A stretch of DNA of 64,000 nt, taken from positions 62,001 to 126,000 of the forward strand of contig CAITVK010000028.1 in the NCBI GenBank assembly GCA_903895845.1, written 5' to 3'. The notes beneath the pieces were generated by a model. The model searched no databases. It worked only from the letters and a program-made list of their open reading frames with translations, and was not told where the DNA came from. Source of the DNA: an uncultured Chitinophagaceae bacterium. Lineage in GTDB: Bacteria; Bacteroidota; Bacteroidia; Chitinophagales; Chitinophagaceae. A program made the position numbers and the translations under genes. Of this stretch, positions 23,121 through 61,375 are shown piece by piece (position 1 is the stretch's first letter; the number at the start of each line of letters is the position of its first letter).

Positions 23121-23583
23121 TGTCTAAATTATATCGTCAAACGGAATTTTCATATAAGCTTGCAGCCAACTCTTAAATATGCGCATGTTTTTAACCTTAC
23201 AAACTAGCGTATTTTTTTGCTACATCACTACTCAACCAATTAAAAATATACGCTAGTTTATTCCAGTAGCCCAAATACAAATCTAAGGTAATTTACATCT
23301 CCAAATTTAAACTATCCAAAGTGCTTAGCATCCAGCCCAAAACCCTCTCCAAAAACTATTTTCAAAATGTGTACAACTTTATAAGCATAATACGGAATCT
23401 TTCTGTGAACCTTTGCTTGTGCTCTACAAATTATTGGTTGCCCCTGTCAAAAACCCTCCCGTGGCAACCAACACTACCAAGCCCCGTTCAGTAGCAACTT
23501 TTCTCTCTTTTGTTTCCCTTTCTTTTTTGGTTCAGATACTTATTTACTGCCGCCAAGGAATGACCCAAGGAGTTCCTAGAATT
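23121..23583. other. Gap upstream of array A with a strong inverted repeat
   Basis: The main structure is an inverted repeat: AAACTAGCGTA (from 23201) pairs with TACGCTAGTTT (to 23258), the arms continuing with mispairs into A/T runs, loop about 30 bases. It lies 80 bases upstream of the EF-Tu III-like gene, so it may be an operator. The rest contains no convincing gene; the frame open at 23413-23841 is kept open mostly by the repeat array. Confidence 0.5.
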
Positions 23584-23751
23584 ATTTCTGGTGCTCCAGA
23601 ATCCATTTCTGGTACTCCAGAAGTCATTTCTGGTACTCCAGAAACCGTTTCTGGTACTCCAGAAACCATTTCTGGTGTTCCGGAAACCATTTCTGGTACT
23701 CCGGAAGTCATTTCTGGAAGTCCAGAAATCATTTCCGGAGTTCCAGAAATG
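23584..23751. repeat. Array A: eight 21-bp tandem repeats with internal palindrome
   Basis: Eight head-to-tail units, each exactly 21 bp, with no spacers; a degenerate copy precedes them. Most units contain TTCTGGTACTCCAGAA, an inverted repeat with 6-bp arms. Units differ at a few positions, mainly in the last three bases (TCC, GTC, ACC, ATC). Frames are open on both strands (plus strand would read ISGTPEx heptapeptides), as expected for a 21-bp period free of stops. The array ends 101 bases before the ATG at 23853. Confidence 0.95.
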
Positions 23752-23852
23752 ACCCCGTGGGGAGCCAATTTGATCTTTTTTAAGCGTTCTGTCGCCAATA
23801 TTCATTTTTTATTAAACAATAACCCCCTTTTTCACACTTAAAACTTTCAATT

Positions 23853-24996: not shown

Positions 24997-25929
24997 ATGA
25001 GCGAAAAGATGATTTATGGAAGATGGCTAGCGTTTCTCTCAGTTATAATATGTATTGTTGTATTTTGTGGTTGTAGCAATACTAAAAGTAAAGCACAAAC
25101 AGATACACCGCAACAAGGTACCATCAACATAAGTGTAGACGAAAGCTTTGAACCGGTAATTGAAGAGGAGATAAAAGTGTATGAATCTACTTATCCCGAT
25201 GCACATATCATCGCACACTACAAACCGGAAGCAGATTGTTTTAAAGACTTTCAGAGCGATAGTACCCGATTGATAATTGTGGATAGGCCACTGGATAAAA
25301 AAGAAAGGGATTACTACGAAGCAGCGCTTAGCTTCAGACCTCAGTTTTCTTTGATAGCCTACGATGCAGTGGCAATAATATTAAACCAAAAATGCAAAGA
25401 CAGCGTATTTACTATTAGTCGCCTTCATGATATTTTGAGTGGCAAGGAAAACCTGATAGCAGTAATGGATGGTAAAAATGCAACGAGTACCGTAAGATAT
25501 TTGCAGGATAGCATACTGAAGGGTGAACAATTTGGCAAAAATGTGGTTGCTTCCAAGAATAGTGAAGATGTAATAAATATTATCACCAACAGAACAGATG
25601 CAATTGGCTTTGTAGGACTGAATTGGGTGGGCGATAACTACGATAGAAAGCAACAGGAATTGCTAAAAAAAATAAAATTAGGGCTGGTAGAGTGCGTTCG
25701 TTGCGAAGAAAAGGGTTTATTTGCCAAACCTTCGGCTGCATCGGTAAGTTTTGCGCAGTATCCGTTGGCTCGTCCGTTGTACTTTATAGTTAAGGAGAAC
25801 GCCACAGGACTGGGTACAGGATTCACTAATTTCCTGAGTATGGAAAGGGGACAATTGATTTTTAGACGCTCTTTTTTGATTCCGGCAATTATGAACTTTA
25901 ATAAAAGAACGAGTAAGATAGAGGAGTAG
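24997..25929 (+). CDS. PstS-like periplasmic binding lipoprotein
   Basis: A 310-residue lipoprotein with a lipobox (VVFCGCSNTK, lipidated Cys in CGC). The mature part matches the PBP-like/PstS fold: GTINISVDESFEPVIEEEI, the D.F..LQSDSTR-type loop and DAIGFVGLNWVGD. It has no Pst permease genes nearby. In many Bacteroidota a PstS-like protein sits with ExbBD/TonB and a TPR protein; here only the TPR gene follows. Phosphate binding is not certain. Confidence 0.75.
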   Translation: MSEKMIYGRWLAFLSVIICIVVFCGCSNTKSKAQTDTPQQGTINISVDESFEPVIEEEIKVYESTYPDAHIIAHYKPEADCFKDFQSDSTRLIIVDRPLDKKERDYYEAALSFRPQFSLIAYDAVAIILNQKCKDSVFTISRLHDILSGKENLIAVMDGKNATSTVRYLQDSILKGEQFGKNVVASKNSEDVINIITNRTDAIGFVGLNWVGDNYDRKQQELLKKIKLGLVECVRCEEKGLFAKPSAASVSFAQYPLARPLYFIVKENATGLGTGFTNFLSMERGQLIFRRSFLIPAIMNFNKRTSKIEE

Positions 25930-26006
25930 ATAGATAGTAGATAGATATTAGATAGTAGTTATGAGTTATAAGTTATGAGTGATGAGTCACAAGTCATAAG
26001 TGGTAA
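25926..26006. repeat. Tandem short repeats: TAGATAG run then seven GTNNTAA/GTNATGA heptamers
   Basis: A run of TAGATAG-like units (25926-25957) is followed by seven 7-base units from 25958: GTTATGA, GTTATAA, GTTATGA, GTGATGA, GTCACAA, GTCATAA, GTGGTAA. It directly follows the PstS-like gene. A related run in the opposite orientation occurs at 26086-26113. Confidence 0.8.
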
Positions 26007-26085
26007 GGAAGAAGAATTTAAAAAAAACAAGCAATATAAACAAGCAGGTAATCGTAAAGTGTGTCATTAATTTAGTTGTATTTAC

Positions 26086-29032: not shown

Positions 29033-29539
29033 ATGGCAATAACTAATTCATACATACAAGAAAAGCTTACAGAGAAATTTGGCGAACAAGTAACCAATTT
29101 CGAAGAAACGTATGATATGCTTTCATTTGAGTCTCCAAAAGAGCTGAACCTGAAAGTATTACAGTTTTTGTATGACGAACCTACTTTGAGCTTTCAGTTT
29201 ATGACTGATTTAACTGCTGTTCATTATCCCAAACAAGTAGGAAGGGAATTGGCAGTTGTTTACCATTTGCATAATTTGGTTGAGAATGTTCGTTTGAGGT
29301 TTAAAGTCTTTACAGATGTAAATACACCGGATGTTTTCACAGCTTCTAAACTGTTTGAAGCAGCAAACTGGATGGAAAGAGAAACGTATGATTTCTTTGG
29401 GATAAATTTTGTTGGACATCCTAATTTGAAAAGAGTATTGAACGTTGACGAAATGGATTATTTCCCTTTAAGAAAAGAATTTCCATTGGAAGACCAGACA
29501 AGAATTGATAAGGATGATGAAATGTTTGGTAGGGGATAA
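29033..29539 (+). CDS. nuoC: NADH-quinone oxidoreductase subunit C
   Basis: A 168-residue, 30-kDa-type subunit. The family pattern is seen in WMERETYDFFGINFVGHPNLKRVL and the C-terminal PLRKEFPLED. It starts one base after the nuoB stop and is separate from nuoD, unlike the fused nuoCD of enterobacteria. Confidence 0.96.
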   Translation: MAITNSYIQEKLTEKFGEQVTNFEETYDMLSFESPKELNLKVLQFLYDEPTLSFQFMTDLTAVHYPKQVGRELAVVYHLHNLVENVRLRFKVFTDVNTPDVFTASKLFEAANWMERETYDFFGINFVGHPNLKRVLNVDEMDYFPLRKEFPLEDQTRIDKDDEMFGRG

Positions 29540-29541
29540 GA

Positions 29542-29597
29542 GTTGTAAGTAGTAGGTTTTAAGTATTAAGTAATAGGTTTTAAGTAATACGTTAAGA
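29542..29597. repeat. Eight heptamers (GTNNTAA) between nuoC and nuoD
   Basis: Units in order: GTTGTAA, GTAGTAG, GTTTTAA, GTATTAA, GTAATAG, GTTTTAA, GTAATAC, GTTAAGA. The phase is exact over 56 bases. It fills most of the 91-base gap inside an operon and must be transcribed. Confidence 0.85.
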
Positions 29598-31815: not shown

Positions 31816-31871
31816 AAAATATTAGAATTAATTAATAAAGCTTTTTGCTTCAAGCTCACAAGCAGTAGGAT

Positions 31872-34348: not shown

Positions 34349-35404
34349 ATGACAATACTTGCACTAGACTGGTTTTTACTGATAGAAAAATTGATACTCA
34401 TTGCTATCATCATTTTCGCAAGTTTGGGCGTTGCGTTATATACCACTTTCGCTGAAAGAAAGGTAGCTGCCATCCTTCAAGACAGACCAGGACCTAACCG
34501 TGCCGGACCATTTGGTTTGCTTCAACCATTGGCTGATGGTCTTAAACTAATCACTAAAGAAGAAATTATTCCTACTCACGCCAACAAATGGTTGTTTATT
34601 TTAGGTCCTGGTTTGGCAATGACTGCTGCATTAATGACTTGCGCCGTTGTGCCTTGGGGTGGAACCATTGAAGTACTTGGCCATCAGGTAGATTTACAAA
34701 TTGCAGACGTAAACATTGGTATTCTCTATGTTTTTGCAGTAGTAAGTATGGGGGTTTATGGTGTAATGATTGGTGGTTGGGCTAGTAATAATAAATTTTC
34801 TTTGATGGCTGCTTTGCGTGCGGCTAGTCAGGCAATAAGTTACGAATTGGCAATGGGGCTTTCTTTAATTGCTCTTTTAATGGTTACTGGTTCGCTTAGT
34901 TTGCGCACCATCGTAGAACAACAAGTGGGGCATGTTTGGAACATTGTTTACCAACCTCTTGGGTTTCTTATCTTCTTTATTTGTGCTTTGGCTGAATGTA
35001 ACCGTACACCTTTCGATTTGCCTGAAGCAGAAAATGAATTGAACTTTGGTTATCACCAGGAGTATTCTTCTATGAAGCTTGGGTTTTACCTCTTTTCAGA
35101 ATACATCAATATGTTCATCAGTAGTACCATCATGGCTACAATGTTCTTTGGCGGTTACGATTTACCTTTTGTTACTAGTCATTTATCTATTCCCGGTACT
35201 GCTGCTATCGTTGGTATAGTTGTATTGATGGCTAAGGTGGTCATGTTTATCTTCTTGTTTATGTGGATTAGATGGACAATACCAAGGTTTCGTTATGATC
35301 AATTGATGGATTTAGGTTGGAAGAAGATGATTCCTTTGGCTTTGGCTAACATGTTGGTGACAGGATTCTTTATTTTGTGGCATCAGAATAACTGGCATTT
35401 TTAA
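34349..35404 (+). CDS. nuoH: NADH-quinone oxidoreductase subunit H
   Basis: A 351-residue membrane subunit with about eight segments linking the peripheral arm to the membrane arm. Seen in ERKVAAILQDRPGPNRAGPFGLLQPLADG and the loop ECNRTPFDLPEAENEL. Array B lies between its stop and nuoI. Confidence 0.97.
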   Translation: MTILALDWFLLIEKLILIAIIIFASLGVALYTTFAERKVAAILQDRPGPNRAGPFGLLQPLADGLKLITKEEIIPTHANKWLFILGPGLAMTAALMTCAVVPWGGTIEVLGHQVDLQIADVNIGILYVFAVVSMGVYGVMIGGWASNNKFSLMAALRAASQAISYELAMGLSLIALLMVTGSLSLRTIVEQQVGHVWNIVYQPLGFLIFFICALAECNRTPFDLPEAENELNFGYHQEYSSMKLGFYLFSEYINMFISSTIMATMFFGGYDLPFVTSHLSIPGTAAIVGIVVLMAKVVMFIFLFMWIRWTIPRFRYDQLMDLGWKKMIPLALANMLVTGFFILWHQNNWHF

Positions 35405-35442: not shown

Positions 35443-35652
35443 TTGGGATACTAAGGAGAGACCTTGGGATATGAAGTAGAGGCTTTGGGATACAAAGGAA
35501 CTGTTCCGGGATACAAAGGGAAAGCTTTGGGATACAAAGGAATGATTGTGGGATATGAAAGAAGTCTTTTGGGATATAAAGTAAAGGTGTTGGGATACAA
35601 GGGAAAGGATTTGGGATATAAAGGAGAAAATTTGGGATACAAAGGGAAACAG
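35443..35652. repeat. Array B: ten 21-bp tandem repeats between nuoH and nuoI
   Basis: Ten contiguous units of exactly 21 bp, starting TTGGGATACAAAGG in most copies, with the last seven or so bases more variable. Strand composition is strongly purine-biased on the plus strand. A plus frame open from 35464 runs through the array into the nuoI start (would read GYKGK-type heptapeptides) and a minus frame is open too. The last unit ends 31 bases before the nuoI ATG. It is transcribed as part of the nuo mRNA. Confidence 0.96.
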
Positions 35653-35683
35653 CTAACTTATATTATAAAGAAGAAAAACGCTT

Positions 35684-36217
35684 ATGCAAGCATTAACAAA
35701 TAGGGCGAAACAAGTAGATCGTGCACCAATGACTTTCATTGAGCAACTTTACTTATGGAATATTGTGAAGGGCATGGCGATTACTTTTATGCACATGTTC
35801 AAGAAGCAACCTACTATCAGGTATCCTGAACAAAAGCGTGAGTTTAGTCCTGTTTTCAGAGGATTACACGTTTTGAACAGAGATGAAGAAGGTAAGGAAA
35901 GATGTACTGCATGTGGTTTGTGTGCAGTGGCTTGCCCTGCAGAAGCCATCACAATGGAAGCGGCAGAACGTTTGGAAAGTGAAGAACATCTGTATCGTGA
36001 AGAAAAATATGCGGCCAAGTATGAGATTAATATGCTTCGTTGCATCTACTGTGGATTGTGCGAGGAGGCTTGCCCTAAAGATGCCATTTACTTAAGCGAA
36101 ACATTTACGCCTGCTGATTTTAACAGAAAGAACTTTATTTATAAAAAGACTGATTTATTAATTCCTAACCCTACAACGGATGCACAAGGTTTTGCAGCGG
36201 CTAAAGGATTAAATTAA
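35684..36217 (+). CDS. nuoI: NADH-quinone oxidoreductase subunit I
   Basis: A 177-residue ferredoxin-type subunit with two 4Fe-4S motifs: CTACGLCAVACP and CIYCGLCEEACP. The amphipathic N-terminus (LYLWNIVKGMAITFMHMF) sits on the membrane. The start ATG at 35684 follows array B; the frame through the array overlaps the first 20 bases. Confidence 0.96.
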   Translation: MQALTNRAKQVDRAPMTFIEQLYLWNIVKGMAITFMHMFKKQPTIRYPEQKREFSPVFRGLHVLNRDEEGKERCTACGLCAVACPAEAITMEAAERLESEEHLYREEKYAAKYEINMLRCIYCGLCEEACPKDAIYLSETFTPADFNRKNFIYKKTDLLIPNPTTDAQGFAAAKGLN

Positions 36218-43424: not shown

Positions 43425-46400
43425 TTACTTTATCAATACAGTTGTTCCACTAGCAGATTTGGGCATGCCATTCGGAAGAATATAATCCAAGAACCATATA
43501 TAAGTGCCAGTTTCTTGCAAAACACCATTAACTCGTCCATCCCAACCACTAAATAAATCGTGGCTCTCAAACACCACATTCCCATAGCGATTTAAGACCC
43601 GGAAGTGAACCGTTTTAATTGTATTGCCACCACCATAAGGTCTCAAAAGTTTGGTGACACCAGTAACATTTGTGCTTGTGGGCACAAAACCCTGAGGGAT
43701 ATAAATGGTATCGCAGTTGGCATCTTTATCAAGTAAAAGAATAATACCGGTTACGCTGTCTACCAAACAACTAGCTCTGTTGTAGACATAAATAGCATAA
43801 GTGCCTTGCGAGAGATTACGGATTGTATATGGATTGGTATAGTTGTTATTTAGGAAAGAGAACTGAAAAGGTCCCTCATTTCCTTGTATGGCAACATCCA
43901 GTGAACCCCCAAAAAGATTGGTACAACTTGCATCGTGTGGAATTGCGGTACTTTGAGGCTGCACGCCCAGCACTGGCATTATCCTGCTGGCAGTTACGGT
44001 GCCACACTGAAAGTGAACAGTGTAGGAAATGGTTGTTGAGCCAATATTCAACCCATTCAACTTGCCCTTGCTGCTATCGATTGAAGCTATGGTTGTATCG
44101 GAACTTTTCCAGATACCACCTGCCGTGCCATCAGCCAGTGGGATTGATTGATTGATACAGACGGCATTATTACCCGTTATGGTATCAATTGTATATCCAT
44201 AAACAACTGTCAATTCTAGTTTGGCAGTGCTATCACAACCTACACTATTTGTGAGATGTGCCGTATATGTGCCACTTGCATTGTAACTGCTACCATTAAA
44301 AATGTAGGTACTTCCGCCGCAGATAGTTGCCCTTGTAACAGAAGAGGTAGTATCCTTAATGTAAAGAATAAGTTGGGCAGTACTATCACAACCAACACTA
44401 TTTGTTAGATGTGCATTGTATATGCCAGCATTAGAATAGGTAATACCATTGAATGTATATGAACTACCTGGACAAATACCTACTGTGGTGATAGAAGAAG
44501 TGGTGTCTTTGATTGAAAGCACCAGATTGGCAATACTGTCACAGCCTGAACTATTGGTAAGATGTGCAACATAGGAACCTGCAATTGAATAACGATTGCC
44601 ATTGAATGTATATGAACTTCCTGGACAAATACTGGCAATTGTTGTGGAAGTAGTTGGTAAGTTGATGGTAAGGTTTAAGGTAGCCGTATTGTCACAACCA
44701 GCAGCATTTTCACTTGCATAGGTATAAGTTCCACTTTTGTTATAGGTCGTGCCATTCCAAGTGTAATTGCTACAAGCTTTTATTGTTGTTGAAGTGGTGG
44801 TTGGACTGTTTATCGTTAATACTAACGTAGCAGTACTATCGCAGCCAAAGGAATTTTTGATGGTATAGGTGTAGGTGCCACTAGTAGTGTAGGTAGTATT
44901 GTTCCAGGTGTAGCTACTGCAAGCAGTAATATTTGTTGAGGATGAAGTTTTATAATTGATTGTAAGATTTAGGGTAGCAATACTATCGCAGCCAAGGGCA
45001 TTTTTTGTGGCGTAAGTGTATGTGCCGCTATTTGTATAAGTTCTGTTATTCCATGTATAACTGCCACAAGCTGTGATGTCGGTAGAGGAGGTAGTTGGAT
45101 AGGTAATTGTCAACAATAATCTGGCAGTATCGTAACATCCTTGTCCATTCTTTGTGATGTAGTCATAAGTGCCACTCGTAGTGTAGGTTGTTCCGTTCCA
45201 AGTATAACTGCTACAAGCAGTAACGGTTTTTGGTGTTGTAGTAGGATAGTGTACTGTTAAAATCAAGGTTGCAGTACTGTCACAGCCCTTTGCATTTTGG
45301 GTTGAGAAGTTGTAGGTACCACTTTTTATGTAGTTAGTGCCATTCCATGTATAGCTACTGCAAGCAGTTATTGAAGTTGACGAAGTGGTAGGGTTGTTAA
45401 TGGTCAATATCAATGTTGCAATGCTGTCACAGCCCTTTGCATTTTGGGTTGAGTAGGTGTAGGTACCACTTTTTGTGTAGGTGACACCGTTCCAAGTGTA
45501 GTTGCTGCAAGCGATTATTGTTGTGGAAGAAGTTGATGGGTTGTTGATGGTCAGATTTATTGTCGACGTACTATCACAGCCCTTTGCATTCAAGCTGTCA
45601 AAGGTGTAAGTGCCACTTTTTGTATATGTTGTTCCATGCCAGGTATAATTACTACACGCTGTAATTATTGTGGAAGAGGTTGTTGGGTTGTTTACTGTTA
45701 ATACCAAGGTAGCCAAGCTATCACACCCAGCACTAGTATTTAGAGATGCTGTTTTAGAGCCAACTGATGTAAAAGTCAAGCCATTCCAATGATATGGAAG
45801 TTGAGCTGAGCAGATACTTAAATTAGTAGTAGAGGTTAAAGTATTGCTGACTGTTAATACCAAAGTCGCCGCACTGTCACAGCCTACACTATTGGTAAGA
45901 TGGGCAGTTTGGGTTCCTGCTGCTGTAAAAGTTAAGCCATTCCAGCTGTAAGGTATTCCACTAGGGCATGTAGTAATGTTTGTTGTCGATGCACTTTTGG
46001 CTTTTACTGTTAGTATCAGCACGTCGGTACTGTCACAGCCCAAGGTCGTAAGTATGTGCGCTGTGTATTTACCAGCAGTTGTGTAACCAACCCCGTTAAA
46101 TGTGTAGCTGTCTCCAGCACAAATGCTAGCATAAGTAACATGGCTGGCAGTATCGCCCACTTCTATGGTATTACTAGTGTCTATTTGCCCATTGTAGTGT
46201 GTTATAGTTGCATAGTAAGTTCCTTTTTGTGTAGGATAATAGGCAGTGTCAATGGAGGATGCCCACTTTTGAACACGTGAATTTCCATAATCGCCCACAT
46301 AGATGACCCCGTCTTTAACCCACACACTACAAGGGCCATAAAGTTGGTTGGCAGCATTGCCAGCACCATTCTTTCCTATGGCTACAATTGGTGTAGTAGA

Positions 46401-51249: not shown

Positions 51250-51349
51250 AATTTGTAGCATTTCTATTCCAGCTTATTTCTTCCCATAACCTAAAAACCA
51301 ATAAAACTCCCTCTCGTTACCCTTGTCAGGCTAATTTACCCCTATCCCT

Positions 51350-51559
51350 GAGTAAAGTACAGGACTTACTGGGTAAAGTAAAAGTCTTACTGGGTAAAGT
51401 ACAGGACTTACTGGGTAAAGTACAGGACTTACTGAGTAAAGTACAAGTCTTACTGGGTAAAGTAAAAGACTTACTGAGTAAAGTAAAAGTCTTACTGGGT
51501 AAAGTACAAGTCTTACTGGGTAAAGTAAAAGGTTTACTGAGTAAAGTACACAACCAACA
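51350..51559. repeat. Array C: nine full 21-bp tandem repeats plus a partial copy
   Basis: Nine contiguous units from 51350 to 51538 and a partial tenth. The core is GTAAAGTACAGGACTTACT; variable bases are concentrated at two places (GAG or GGG at the start, ACAGGAC, AAAAGTC or ACAAGTC in the middle). TTACT at the end of one unit and AGTAA at the start of the next make a short palindrome across each boundary. Two minus frames stay open across it, as expected from the period. The array lies upstream of the M16 gene. Confidence 0.96.
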
Positions 51560-51693
51560 GTCCTCATTTCTTCTTTGTGCTTCTTCCTGTCTTTGCCCCA
51601 TTGTGGCTCACATCCAATCTAACTCATTCGCTCCTACAAAAAAATCTACACTAAGTATTTCTTATCCTAACTTATGCCTTACGCCTACTGCCT
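51560..51693. other. Gap between array C and the M16 promoter box
   Basis: No gene or clear structure recognised. The array, this gap and the box at 51694 together form the 5' region of the M16 peptidase gene. Confidence 0.5.
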
Positions 51694-56299: not shown

Positions 56300-59200
56300 A
56301 TGAACAAAATGAAAAAAGTTTTAACACAATTCCTTTCGTTGATAACAGTGTTACTGTTATCCAATTACTCCTTTGCACAGAGTCCAACAACGCCTGCATT
56401 GGGGTTTAACGCGTTTCTGCAGCAAAATGCAACCTTGGTAACAAATGAGTCCGAAGGGCCAATTGCTATCGGTGGAGATCTAACCGTTAATGGTAACTAT
56501 CAGGTGAATATCCATAACAATGGAACATTCGCTGTAAGTAGTGTACCCATTGGCTTATTTGTTGGAGGCAAGGTGAACTTATCTTCTGGCTCATTACAAG
56601 TTAATAGCGGCAGATATGTGAAGATTGGCAATTGTGCTTCTTCAAATATCAAAACATGGTATCGCGATAATAATAATGCCGCTTCCAACATCTACATTAC
56701 TGGTAGTGCTGCTTCTTATGCCTCTACTCCAAACATCAATATCAATTCAAATGCTTTTGCATGGGGTACAGAAGTTTCTGCTTCTAACAATCCTGTTTGC
56801 GATGCAAATACAGCTTCAGAGATAAGCTTTGCATCTGCTTTTACAAGTATGAAAGCAAGTGCTGCTAGTTTGGCAGCTTGCACAGGTACAGCTAATCTTT
56901 TGTCAAATCCAAATCAAGATAAGTATAGTTCTAATTGTGGGGATGTGAACACAGGTGGTCAAGTAAAAATTACGCTCGCAACTGGTACAAATGTGTTGAA
57001 CATCTCTGGCAGTGATTTGAATAGTGTAACCAATGGCATCACTTTTACCAATCAGCCAGATGCAAATCATGTGTTGGTTATTAATGTAAATGCTGCAGGT
57101 AGCTTCACATGGAATGTTTGGAATCAAGCTGGAATTGGTGGTACAAATGCACCTTATATCATTTACAACTTTTATAATACCACGTCTTTAAGCATCGCAG
57201 GTAACAGTACCATTGAGGGAACTGTTTTTGCGCCAAGTGCTGACATTACAAAAACTGTCAATCAATCTAACATTGAAGGTCAGGTAATTGGTCAGTCTTT
57301 TGTACAAAGTGGTGGTGAACTACATTATTATCCATTTACACCATCTGTTTCTGGTTGTGCGGTTACTTGTACACCAACCACTGCCACACTAGATGTATCA
57401 ACTTGTAATTCATACACATGGCACGGTACAACCTACACAACAAGTGGGGTTCATACTTTTGATAGTTTAAATAAAGGTGGTTGCGATAGCTTAACTACTT
57501 TGAATTTAACTATCAAATCCGCTAGCACATCAACAACCAATGCTAGTATTTGTGATGGCAGTTCATATACCTTCAATGGAACTTCTTATTCAGCGGCAGG
57601 TTCTTATACTGCGCATCTGACTAATGCAGCAGGATGTGATAGTGCAGCTACCTTAGTTTTGACCAAGAAATTCAAAAGCACATCAACAACCAATGCAAGT
57701 ATTTGTGATGGCAGTTCATATACCTTCAATGGAACTTCTTATTCAACGGCAGGTTCTTATACTGCACATTTAGCCAATGCAGCAGGATGTGACAGTGCAG
57801 CTACCTTGGTTTTGACTGTTAAATCCAAGAGTACCTCAACAACTAACGCAAGTATTAATGCTGGAGATTCTTATACCTTCAATGGAACTTCTTATTCAAC
57901 GGCAGGTACTTATACTGCACATTTAACCAATGCAGCAGGATGTGATAGTGCAGCCACTTTGATATTAAAAGTAAAAGCACCTACCACAGCTACAATCTAT
58001 GCTTCTGCGTGCAGCAGCTACACATGGCATGGCACTACATATACTACTAGTGGTTCTTACACATTTGATAGTTTGAACGCCGCTGGTTATGATAGTTTGA
58101 CCACCTTGAATCTTACAATTGGTTCTCCGTCTAACATTGTAGTTACTCAAACAGCAGCTACTTGTAATTCCTTGGGTAATCCTAGTTACAATGGTACACT
58201 TACCATTGCAAGTGGTAGTTATGCATCTAAGTTTGGTATTAGTTCTCTAAATGCTGCTTCTTACAATGGAGCTGATTATAATTCTGCAACATCAATTGGT
58301 TCTTTGCCTGCAACTGCAAAAACAGGTGTACCAAATACTGGTGGAACTTATATTGTGAGAGTATATGGTAGCGATGCAAGTTGCTATACCGATACCAAAG
58401 TAACTGTAGCAGAAGTTTTATGTGGTGGTAAATGTGACAACACAGTTTTCCCTGCTGGTTCTCCAATTGCAGATTTAAATTGGGTAGTACCTCCTTACAA
58501 TACAACTACATTTAATAATTTGTACGAGCCCGGTTCTTCTTCTCCTGTAGGTTCATTTACTGTATATGCTCCGGGTAACCTAAGCTTGCAAAGTCAGAAT
58601 TTATCTAACTATCCTGCTTTTTGTTCTGATCTTTCTAGAGATTTGTATATCAATACCAATTATACCAACTACACAGTAGAACCTTTGGAATATTTGGCTA
58701 AAGAAGACCAAGGGGTTGCTGGAACTCCTGGTATGCAAATTCCTGATGGTGGTATTGGGCCAGTAAGAGCAGGTATGGTTCGGTACTTGGTAGACCAACA
58801 CTATGTTTCTACTAACTCTACAGATTCTGGTTGGTTAACTAATAATCATGCAACTGCTTTCCAATTGGCTCTTTGGGAAATAACACACGATCAATACAAT
58901 GTTTCAAACATTAATTTCTCTGTTAAGAATGCAACAGCTAATGGTTTCTATTTCGATTACAATGCAAACTCTGCAACCAATCAAGCTATATTGGATACAG
59001 CAGAACTTTGGGTAAAAGATGTACAGAATAAGAATATAGATTGGACAGCTTATGTTTCTACTGTATGGCATGCTGTTGCTTTGAATACACCTCAAGCACA
59101 AGATTTAGTTACTGCCGAGCCAATTTCTGTTTGCGGCGTTACTACTCCGGTAAGTTCTGGTGGTTCTGGTGGATTGGAAAGTAAAAGCCTTGGTGCTGCA

Positions 59201-60945: not shown

Positions 60946-60980
60946 GTATCTAATTAATCGAAAATCCTAGTGTTTTCGCT

Positions 60981-61106
60981 TCTCCCAACCGTCTGGCCAT
61001 GTCTTCCAACGACCTGGCTATATGGCTGGGTCATCTGGCCAAATCTTCCAACGGCTTGACCACGTGGCTGAACCGTCTGGCTATATCTTCCAATGACCTG
61101 GCTATT
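60981..61106. repeat. Array D: six 21-bp tandem repeats of two alternating types
   Basis: Six contiguous units. Units 2, 4 and 6 follow TCTTCCAACGACCTGGCTAT; units 3 and 5 follow TGGCTGAACCGTCTGGCTAT; unit 1 is a mixture. The alternation gives a higher-order 42-bp period. A minus frame is open across it (SQVIGRY, GQAVGRF-type heptapeptides). It lies after the surface protein terminator and 299 bases before the GTG start of the ATPase gene. Confidence 0.95.
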
Positions 61107-61375
61107 TGTAAAAGCCATCCTGAAAGACGAAGTTGTGGTTGAAAGAAGCGATTTTTTATCCTGTGAAGCCGAAAAGAGTCTCAATTAGTGTGGCGGGTAG
61201 CGTTGGATAACCGTAAAAATGCAGAGTGGGTGACTTTTAATAAACCTATGAGATGAATCATTTTCTTTGAAGTGGTGGAGATGTGGGGGATGGAGGAAAT
61301 GGGAGAGAAAATGTTTTATATCAAGAAACTAAGACACCATTTCAATATAAAATGTCTTTTATCTTATCACTTCAC
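61107..61375. other. Gap between array D and the ATPase promoter box
   Basis: About 270 bases with no gene recognised. It contains a G-rich stretch (around 61272-61310) but no clear hairpin or RNA gene. Confidence 0.5.

Follow-up and report, generated by a model that had tools for sequence, protein, structure and literature searches.

The array between nuoH and nuoI

Why does a respiratory operon carry ten tandem units directly in front of one of its genes, and does this row of repeats act on the gene that follows it? The question is raised by an uncultured Chitinophagaceae bacterium (assembly GCA_903895845.1), of which we analysed a stretch of 64,000 nucleotides on contig CAITVK010000028.1, hereafter the window. 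On the plus strand, nuoH (NADHdh, PF00146; 34349..35404) and nuoI (4Fe-4S ferredoxin subunit with Fer4 domains; 35684..36217) are separated by a gap of 279 bp, from the nuoH end at 35404 to the nuoI start at 35684. This gap holds, also on the plus strand, an array (35443..35652) of ten 21-bp units, each consisting of the core TTGGGATAYAAAGG and about 7 looser bases. By TRF, the array extends over 35443-35645 with a period of 21, 9.7 copies and 69% matches. The lag-21 identity over 35443-35652 is 0.71. When the window was simulated 40 times by a first-order Markov model, no 189-bp stretch went above 0.46 at any of the lags 7 to 80; the array is real, far beyond chance expectation. A leader of 31 bp (35653..35683, plus strand), ending in AGAAAAACGCTT, connects the array to nuoI. 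An earlier sequence-only reading of this locus had the number of units, the array coordinates and the 31-bp distance correct, as confirmed by TRF and the ORF coordinates; the purine-rich coding strand that it described was measured at 70% purine, and the plus frame that it saw running into nuoI is present as a 79-codon open frame (35464..35703, plus strand) which crosses the array and overlaps the nuoI start by 20 bases. From the gene order, the array is probably part of an mRNA.

We found no second copy of this array in its own genome or in 11 genomes of the same genus (E <= 0.001), and its 600-bp flanks have no off-site match in a 576-kb sample of the own genome. The array is private to its locus in the 12 genomes searched. 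At the same site, it is absent from two relatives, G004 and G010 (NuoH 96% identical in both; gaps of 82 bp and 70 bp, respectively), and a third, G001 (NuoH 97% identical), carries a 21/42-bp array of unrelated AT-rich units in a gap of 289 bp. The bases AGAAAAACGCTT before the nuoI ATG are the same in G001 and G004 and have one change in G010, and they are present with or without an array; with two gaps free of arrays, a different array in a third and these bases kept in all four genomes, the proposal that the operon tolerates the array holds up. Both genes are present in 78 of 80 relatives' loci, where the median gap is 66.5 bp (53 gaps under 100 bp, 16 over 200 bp), so that the expectation of a gap of tens of bases was roughly right; a period-21 array occupies the gap in G001 only. 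The nuoH-nuoI gaps of L077 and L082 hold short-period repeats, which are not of the 21-bp kind.

Several other rearrangements were seen in this operon. On a 4.8-kb contig of G003 (L216:412-3360), another 21-bp array precedes nuoI, with three unrelated ORFs upstream, none of which is nuoH; this may be an insertion or a split of the operon. The nuoH-nuoI junction contains a foreign gene of the glyoxalase family in G007 (L006:1036-1428), an ORF with a marginal aspartyl-protease match, just below the family cut-off, in G012 (L010:2249-2632), and two nucleotidyltransferase genes with HepT-like partners (one partner checked) in G017 (L020:1993-3273). The nuo operon of G001 and G010 (L051:7010-7485 and L052:6902-7356) has a small-ORF-like insert of about 450-480 bp, and the window is without it at 31821-31844.

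A genus-wide class of 21-bp arrays

The window holds three more arrays of this kind. A second period-21 array (23553..23773) has the dyad TTTCTGG-TACT-CCAGAAA and divergent genes on either side, and is spanned by a 142-codon open frame (23413-23841); a third (51320..51572) has a different unit, CTGGGTAAAGTACAAGACTTA; and a period-42 array of the same class (60977..61120) adjoins a flank that is conserved with other copies in the genus. A lag scan of the own-genome sample, which comprises the window and 40 stretches (576 kb), found 52 arrays, 41 of which belong to what we call class 21 (period 21 in 25 arrays, 42 in 11, 41 in two, and 43, 44 and 65 in one each). This corresponds to 7.1 arrays per 100 kb, a density which may be somewhat high since the stretches mostly begin at contig ends, which are rich in arrays, assemblies being broken by them; extrapolated from 41 in 576 kb, the genome would carry about 280. 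The next commonest period was 7, with six arrays. For 12 of the 41 arrays there is no called gene on one side, the coordinates placing them near contig ends, where the number of units may be too low.

Called ORFs (at least 80 codons, those more than 30% covered by an array being dropped) exclude the array in 40 of 41 cases. Where genes are present on both sides (n = 28), they are co-directional, divergent and convergent in 17, 8 and 3 cases, compared with 94, 33 and 16 for all gaps of at least 150 bp, and thus sit in much the same surroundings as intergenic gaps at large. Because the nuo array is one of many, lying in gaps of about the general gene orientation, a role specific to nuo is unlikely, and the suggestion that the array tunes nuoI translation is left unsupported.

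At least one class-21 array was found in 10 of the 12 sampled same-genus genomes, the own genome included. Samples of 20-140 kb gave about 3-10 arrays per 100 kb in G001, G004, G010, G003, G007, G011, G012 and G006; G002 has none in the 10 kb sampled and one at a separate locus; the lag scan detected none in G005 (31 kb) and G008 (9 kb), nor in 40 kb of G022, which belongs to another genus. The counts for the relatives take in arrays whatever their coding status, and one of the two G012 matches (L232:685) appears to us to be coding. Across 77 other loci (1.2 Mb), which were fetched by NuoH similarity, are mostly labelled Chitinophagaceae or Bacteroidetes and include four from same-genus genomes, we found one array of the 21-bp kind (L067). 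A looser scan of the relatives also gave lag-21 segments in L082, L097 and L098, which proved to be heptamer arrays, and in L101, which is weak and mixed, leaving L067 alone. The relatives are mostly metagenome-assembled genomes; such arrays being found in many assemblies, an assembly artefact was set aside as an explanation. The unit sequence varies widely from array to array.

Repeats of other kinds are also present. The window has short 7/14/21-bp repeats at 25910-26008 and 29504-29595, which are heptamer-like, and period 7 is the commonest among the 77 other loci scanned. Tandem repeats of 147 bp and 153 bp (44827-45590 and 57524-57954) lie within very long ORFs (1731 and 1526 aa) and are perhaps repeat domains of surface proteins.

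Unit length and copy number

The reading that we tentatively favour places the nuo array in a class of non-coding arrays, found between genes across the genus, which preserve their unit length of 21 bp (two turns of the helix) and in many cases their site, but not their sequence, helical phase and dyads being selected for a role at the level of DNA. A less probable account is that the arrays are functionless, neutral minisatellites, produced by a genus-specific habit of replication or repair with a 21-nt ruler, which arise in length-tolerant gaps and are replaced by new ones. The ordinary gene context is in keeping with neutrality, and so is the fact that close copies differ by whole units (a difference of one unit between L171 and L178, and between L179 and L180). 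The class has the marks of a minisatellite or VNTR, namely head-to-tail units of about 10-60 bp and a copy number that changes among close relatives.

The spacing of the units argues against neutrality. Cores were located freely in 67 array segments and 250 bp on either side, the segments having been picked for a 21-bp lag, a choice that biases towards exact spacing, and three arrays (L038, L198 and L216) entering as two segments, so that some spacings are counted twice; among the 493 spacings of at most 48 bp thus obtained, 484 were of 21 bp and six of 42 bp (a skipped unit), and 15, 33 and 41 bp occurred once each (15 and 33 both in L232, 41 in the T-rich L042). None was of 20 or 22 bp. Neighbouring units differ at 6.5 of 21 positions (about 31% substitution), roughly 3,000 differences in all, and neutral decay should also leave indels; even with segments selected in this manner, ordinary indel drift should leave 20- and 22-bp steps, and finding none speaks against drift. 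Of the 41 own arrays, 36 have a period divisible by 3; the periods of the other five (41, 43, 44 and 65) miss an even number of helical turns by no more than about 0.2 turn.

The site is often kept, the sequence often not

For the comparison of gaps between species we took those of the own genome for which both flanks had a counterpart in the fetched loci of G001, G004 or G010, leaving out cases where the relative's gap was 900 bp or more. A class-21 array was present in the relative's orthologous gap in 9 of 16 comparisons for own array gaps, which come from eight sites and are non-independent, versus 0 of 122 for own array-less gaps (Fisher p 3e-10); with the control gaps restricted to own gaps of at least 150 bp, the latter count was 0 of 18 (Fisher p 2e-4). 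Three of the seven negatives come from the weak, partly heptameric site 29504, without which the proportion is 9/13. A second matching that used no ORF calls (15 comparisons from nine sites, with two heptamer-like sites and one in-ORF array set aside) gave four related arrays, five unrelated ones and six gaps without an array. The contrast with the control gaps is difficult for the neutral account, while gain and loss, seen in the absence of the array from 4 of 13 orthologous gaps (without site 29504) or 6 of 15 by the second matching, is as neutrality would have it, as is the private nature of the nuo array.

The related arrays are those of site B in three species and of the L146 site in G001. 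Five of the nine shared sites showed no BLAST similarity: the nuo site and site A in G001, and sites A and C and the L146 site in G010. At the L146 site, the three species are alignable in register with differing letters, and gradual rewriting of the array is possible there. The site A arrays of G001 and G010 are 98% identical to each other, and the surrounding 1.2 kb is 93-100% alike per 60-bp window. Along L213:1-2400 versus L212 (G001/G010), identity is 93-100% over about 1.2 kb through the array and 77-97% thereafter, which looks like a recent exchange with a breakpoint after the array; because of this apparent exchange, site A in these two genomes counts as one event. The notion that arrays are born already diversified, drawn from the 98% identity at site A, is weakened since the surroundings are similarly alike and look recently exchanged.

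Conserved flanks could also indicate that the arrays ride inside mobile minisatellite elements, of which it is the flanks that move, in the manner of BrickBuilt and 464/PgRS of Porphyromonas gingivalis; we consider this improbable. The right-hand flank of one own array occurs at 15 places (L171-L185) in 7 of the 12 genomes and has an array adjoining it in 13 of the 15 (G003 L174 has none, and L172 is cut at the contig end), and several of the copies share their left side by eye. The 13 arrays fall into nine unit families by our sorting (four families twice; periods 21, 41 and 42), which is a further instance of one place with changing units. A precedent exists in that other Bacteroidete, where the available part of the source describes minisatellites of 23 and 41 nt inside MITEs (PMC4596501). 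Against mobility stand the many unrelated units of the class and the nuo array itself, which was found only once in the 12 genomes, and whose flanks match nothing else in the own sample and show no leader and tail common to copies as in BrickBuilt. Moreover, the recurring flank lies upstream of a paralogous gene in L173 and L182 (product start YYLPDADAER-like or YYLPHGDNER-like; no Pfam match for the L182 product) and may be a common 5' region instead of a transposon. The empty orthologous sites that we looked at are too diverged to give clean junctions for terminal inverted repeats or a target-site duplication.

Symmetry, folding and coding capacity

Judged against shuffles of their own columns, 27 of 74 segments had a dyad at p<=0.05 and 61 of 74 were at or below 0.5 (25 of 67 significant in another run), an excess which weighs against neutrality. 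A significant dyad was lacking in 47 of 74 segments, so the dyad as a universal rule was rejected, a minority of arrays passing singly; the dyad of the nuo array, CTTTG-GGATA-CAAAG, is weak or borderline (p 0.06). Of the 35 units at site B, 15 have G-C and 9 have A-T at one position pair of the dyad, and 18 leave the outermost pair unpaired. Within arrays, identity is not raised at lags 7, 10, 11 or 14. An origin from 7-bp repeats was discarded, with a lag-7 identity of 0.287 versus 0.692 at lag 21 (34 arrays). Intrinsic curvature was not established, as lag-10/11 identity is flat and the surplus of AA/TT steps spaced 10-11 bp apart is weak (1.01 vs 0.86, sd 0.08), under 2 sd.

CRISPR arrays have a near-palindromic constant part and a variable part. 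Our arrays resemble them in this division, and the variable parts of the L179/L180 pair are common to both in the same order, but the variable part here is of about 7 bp. The contrast between the core and the remainder of the unit is real on average (0.208 vs 0.165, sd 0.006), with 12 of 67 segments passing singly, and in eight homologous pairs the core is mildly more conserved (134/1110 substitutions vs 99/559 in the rest). A strict constant core with random spacers, as in CRISPR, was therefore dropped as the main reading, few segments passing singly and the difference among homologues being mild.

It is quite improbable, in our view, that the arrays are elements of RNA, either as a row of hairpins or as a purine-rich stretch of transcript that affects stability or ribosome access, nuoI included. 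Array segments do fold better than column-shuffled ones. Where the dyad has p<=0.1, the transcribed strand shows 42 G-T mismatches and 23 of the A-C type, and co-directional arrays lean towards purine on that strand (in raw figures, mean 0.54, with 16 of 38 above 0.55 and 2 below 0.45). However, the folding effect is larger in gene contexts that do not point to one transcribed strand (mean z -2.56 in these 36) than in the 38 co-directional arrays (-1.67), the nuoH-nuoI gap folds little better than its shuffles (z -1.07), and the gene contexts are those of gaps generally. A known RNA family was likewise rejected, as Rfam gave no match at gathering score in the three loci L179, L173 and L237.

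Coupled translation through the array, which the sequence-only reading had thought possible, or a 7-residue repeat peptide, is very improbable: the open frame into nuoI, the predominance of periods divisible by 3 (36/41) and a mean of open frames per segment slightly above shuffles (1.55 vs 1.34, sd 0.10) suit it, but segments with an open frame are as frequent as in shuffles (52 of 67 vs 48.9 +/- 3.1), so that chance accounts for a frame like that into nuoI, the columns of 34 arrays do not vary with a codon rhythm, five of 41 periods are not multiples of 3, and nuoH does not overlap nuoI in the relatives without an array, so coupling was not inherited. Coding heptapeptide repeats were rejected on the same codon-phase test and open-frame count.

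Possible role of the arrays

The class of 21-bp arrays exists and is dense, without codon structure; its spacing is near-exact, dyads are in excess, whole units are gained and lost, and the site is shared more than the sequence. The step from this pattern to a mechanism is inferred throughout. In the selective reading that we favour, an array would arise on the spot, a local stretch of 21 bp being duplicated in tandem several times over, and its units would then be rewritten together, with selection acting on the phase of the helix and the form of the dyad and not on the letters. The role would probably lie at the DNA level, where a phased stack of weak palindromes might either take up supercoiling or seat a shape-reading nucleoid protein. 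At nuo, the array would then amount to a spacer that the operon tolerates, shortly before a nuoI start region that is intact. The fullest version of this reading, a chromosomal element inherited by place, length and symmetry and not by sequence, whose phase and dyads would be under selection and read through their shape while the letters change jointly within each array and between species, with about 280 copies per genome, seems to us doubtful.

A functional account is favoured by the spacing, the sharing of sites and the dyads; a non-functional one by the ordinary gene context, the empty orthologous sites and the arrays without dyads. As 7 of 16 orthologous gaps are without an array, no single array is indispensable. 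Whether the arrays are functional, which we regard as possible, or neutral, which we regard as rather unlikely, the nuo array is on both accounts an insertion that the operon tolerates, and translation is required by neither.

Comparison with known repeats

From the available parts of the sources, the closest known systems are BrickBuilt and 464/PgRS, followed by the tandem repeats of archaeal Borgs and the intergenic heptamers. Like the arrays described here, BrickBuilt and 464/PgRS are found in a Bacteroidete, between genes, with tandem units of 23 nt or 41 nt, and BrickBuilt has conserved and non-conserved sites, leader and tail flanks, and gain and loss of whole units (PMC4596501, as far as the available part goes). 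In contrast, their element classes have one unit sequence each in some 10-20 copies per genome according to the same part of that source, whereas the 21-bp arrays are many, with unrelated units of one length that are replaced at the same site. Borg repeats, in the accessible portion of PMC9879509, are similar in occupying many loci with an own unit at each, in their fast turnover and independent origin, and in being often absent at the same place in relatives; unlike them, with units of 18, 20, 21 and 36 nt in largely identical copies, many within ORFs, the 21-bp arrays have a fixed length, units about 31% different and a position between genes. Intergenic heptamer repeats are likewise tandem, intergenic, unexplained and of fixed period, going by the portions at hand of PMC4679880 and PMC6344855, and they also occur in the Chitinophagaceae loci scanned here; they differ in their 7-bp period, the 21-bp arrays showing no raised identity at lag 7 or lag 14. 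Intergenic tandem repeats of lake Planctomycetota, in the part of PMC9426551 available, are not repeats of this sort. A single period across many unrelated, mutually replacing units is not described for BrickBuilt/464/PgRS, Borg or heptamer repeats in these partial sources, and among the matches listed for titles and abstracts of the open-licence literature we found no description of fixed-period arrays of changing sequence. The 21-bp arrays are a kind of bacterial minisatellite, with the holding of the period and the replacement of the units as their distinguishing feature.

A fixed 21-base rhythm and an often fixed place with replaced sequence are unusual for bacterial repeats. The conserved quantities are the period and the place, and repeat finders that group by sequence would miss the class. 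The arrays offer a natural test between DNA elements kept for helical phase or shape alone and a repair or replication machine with a 21-nt ruler. They also caution that a repeat array within a respiratory operon may be nothing out of the ordinary in the genus concerned.
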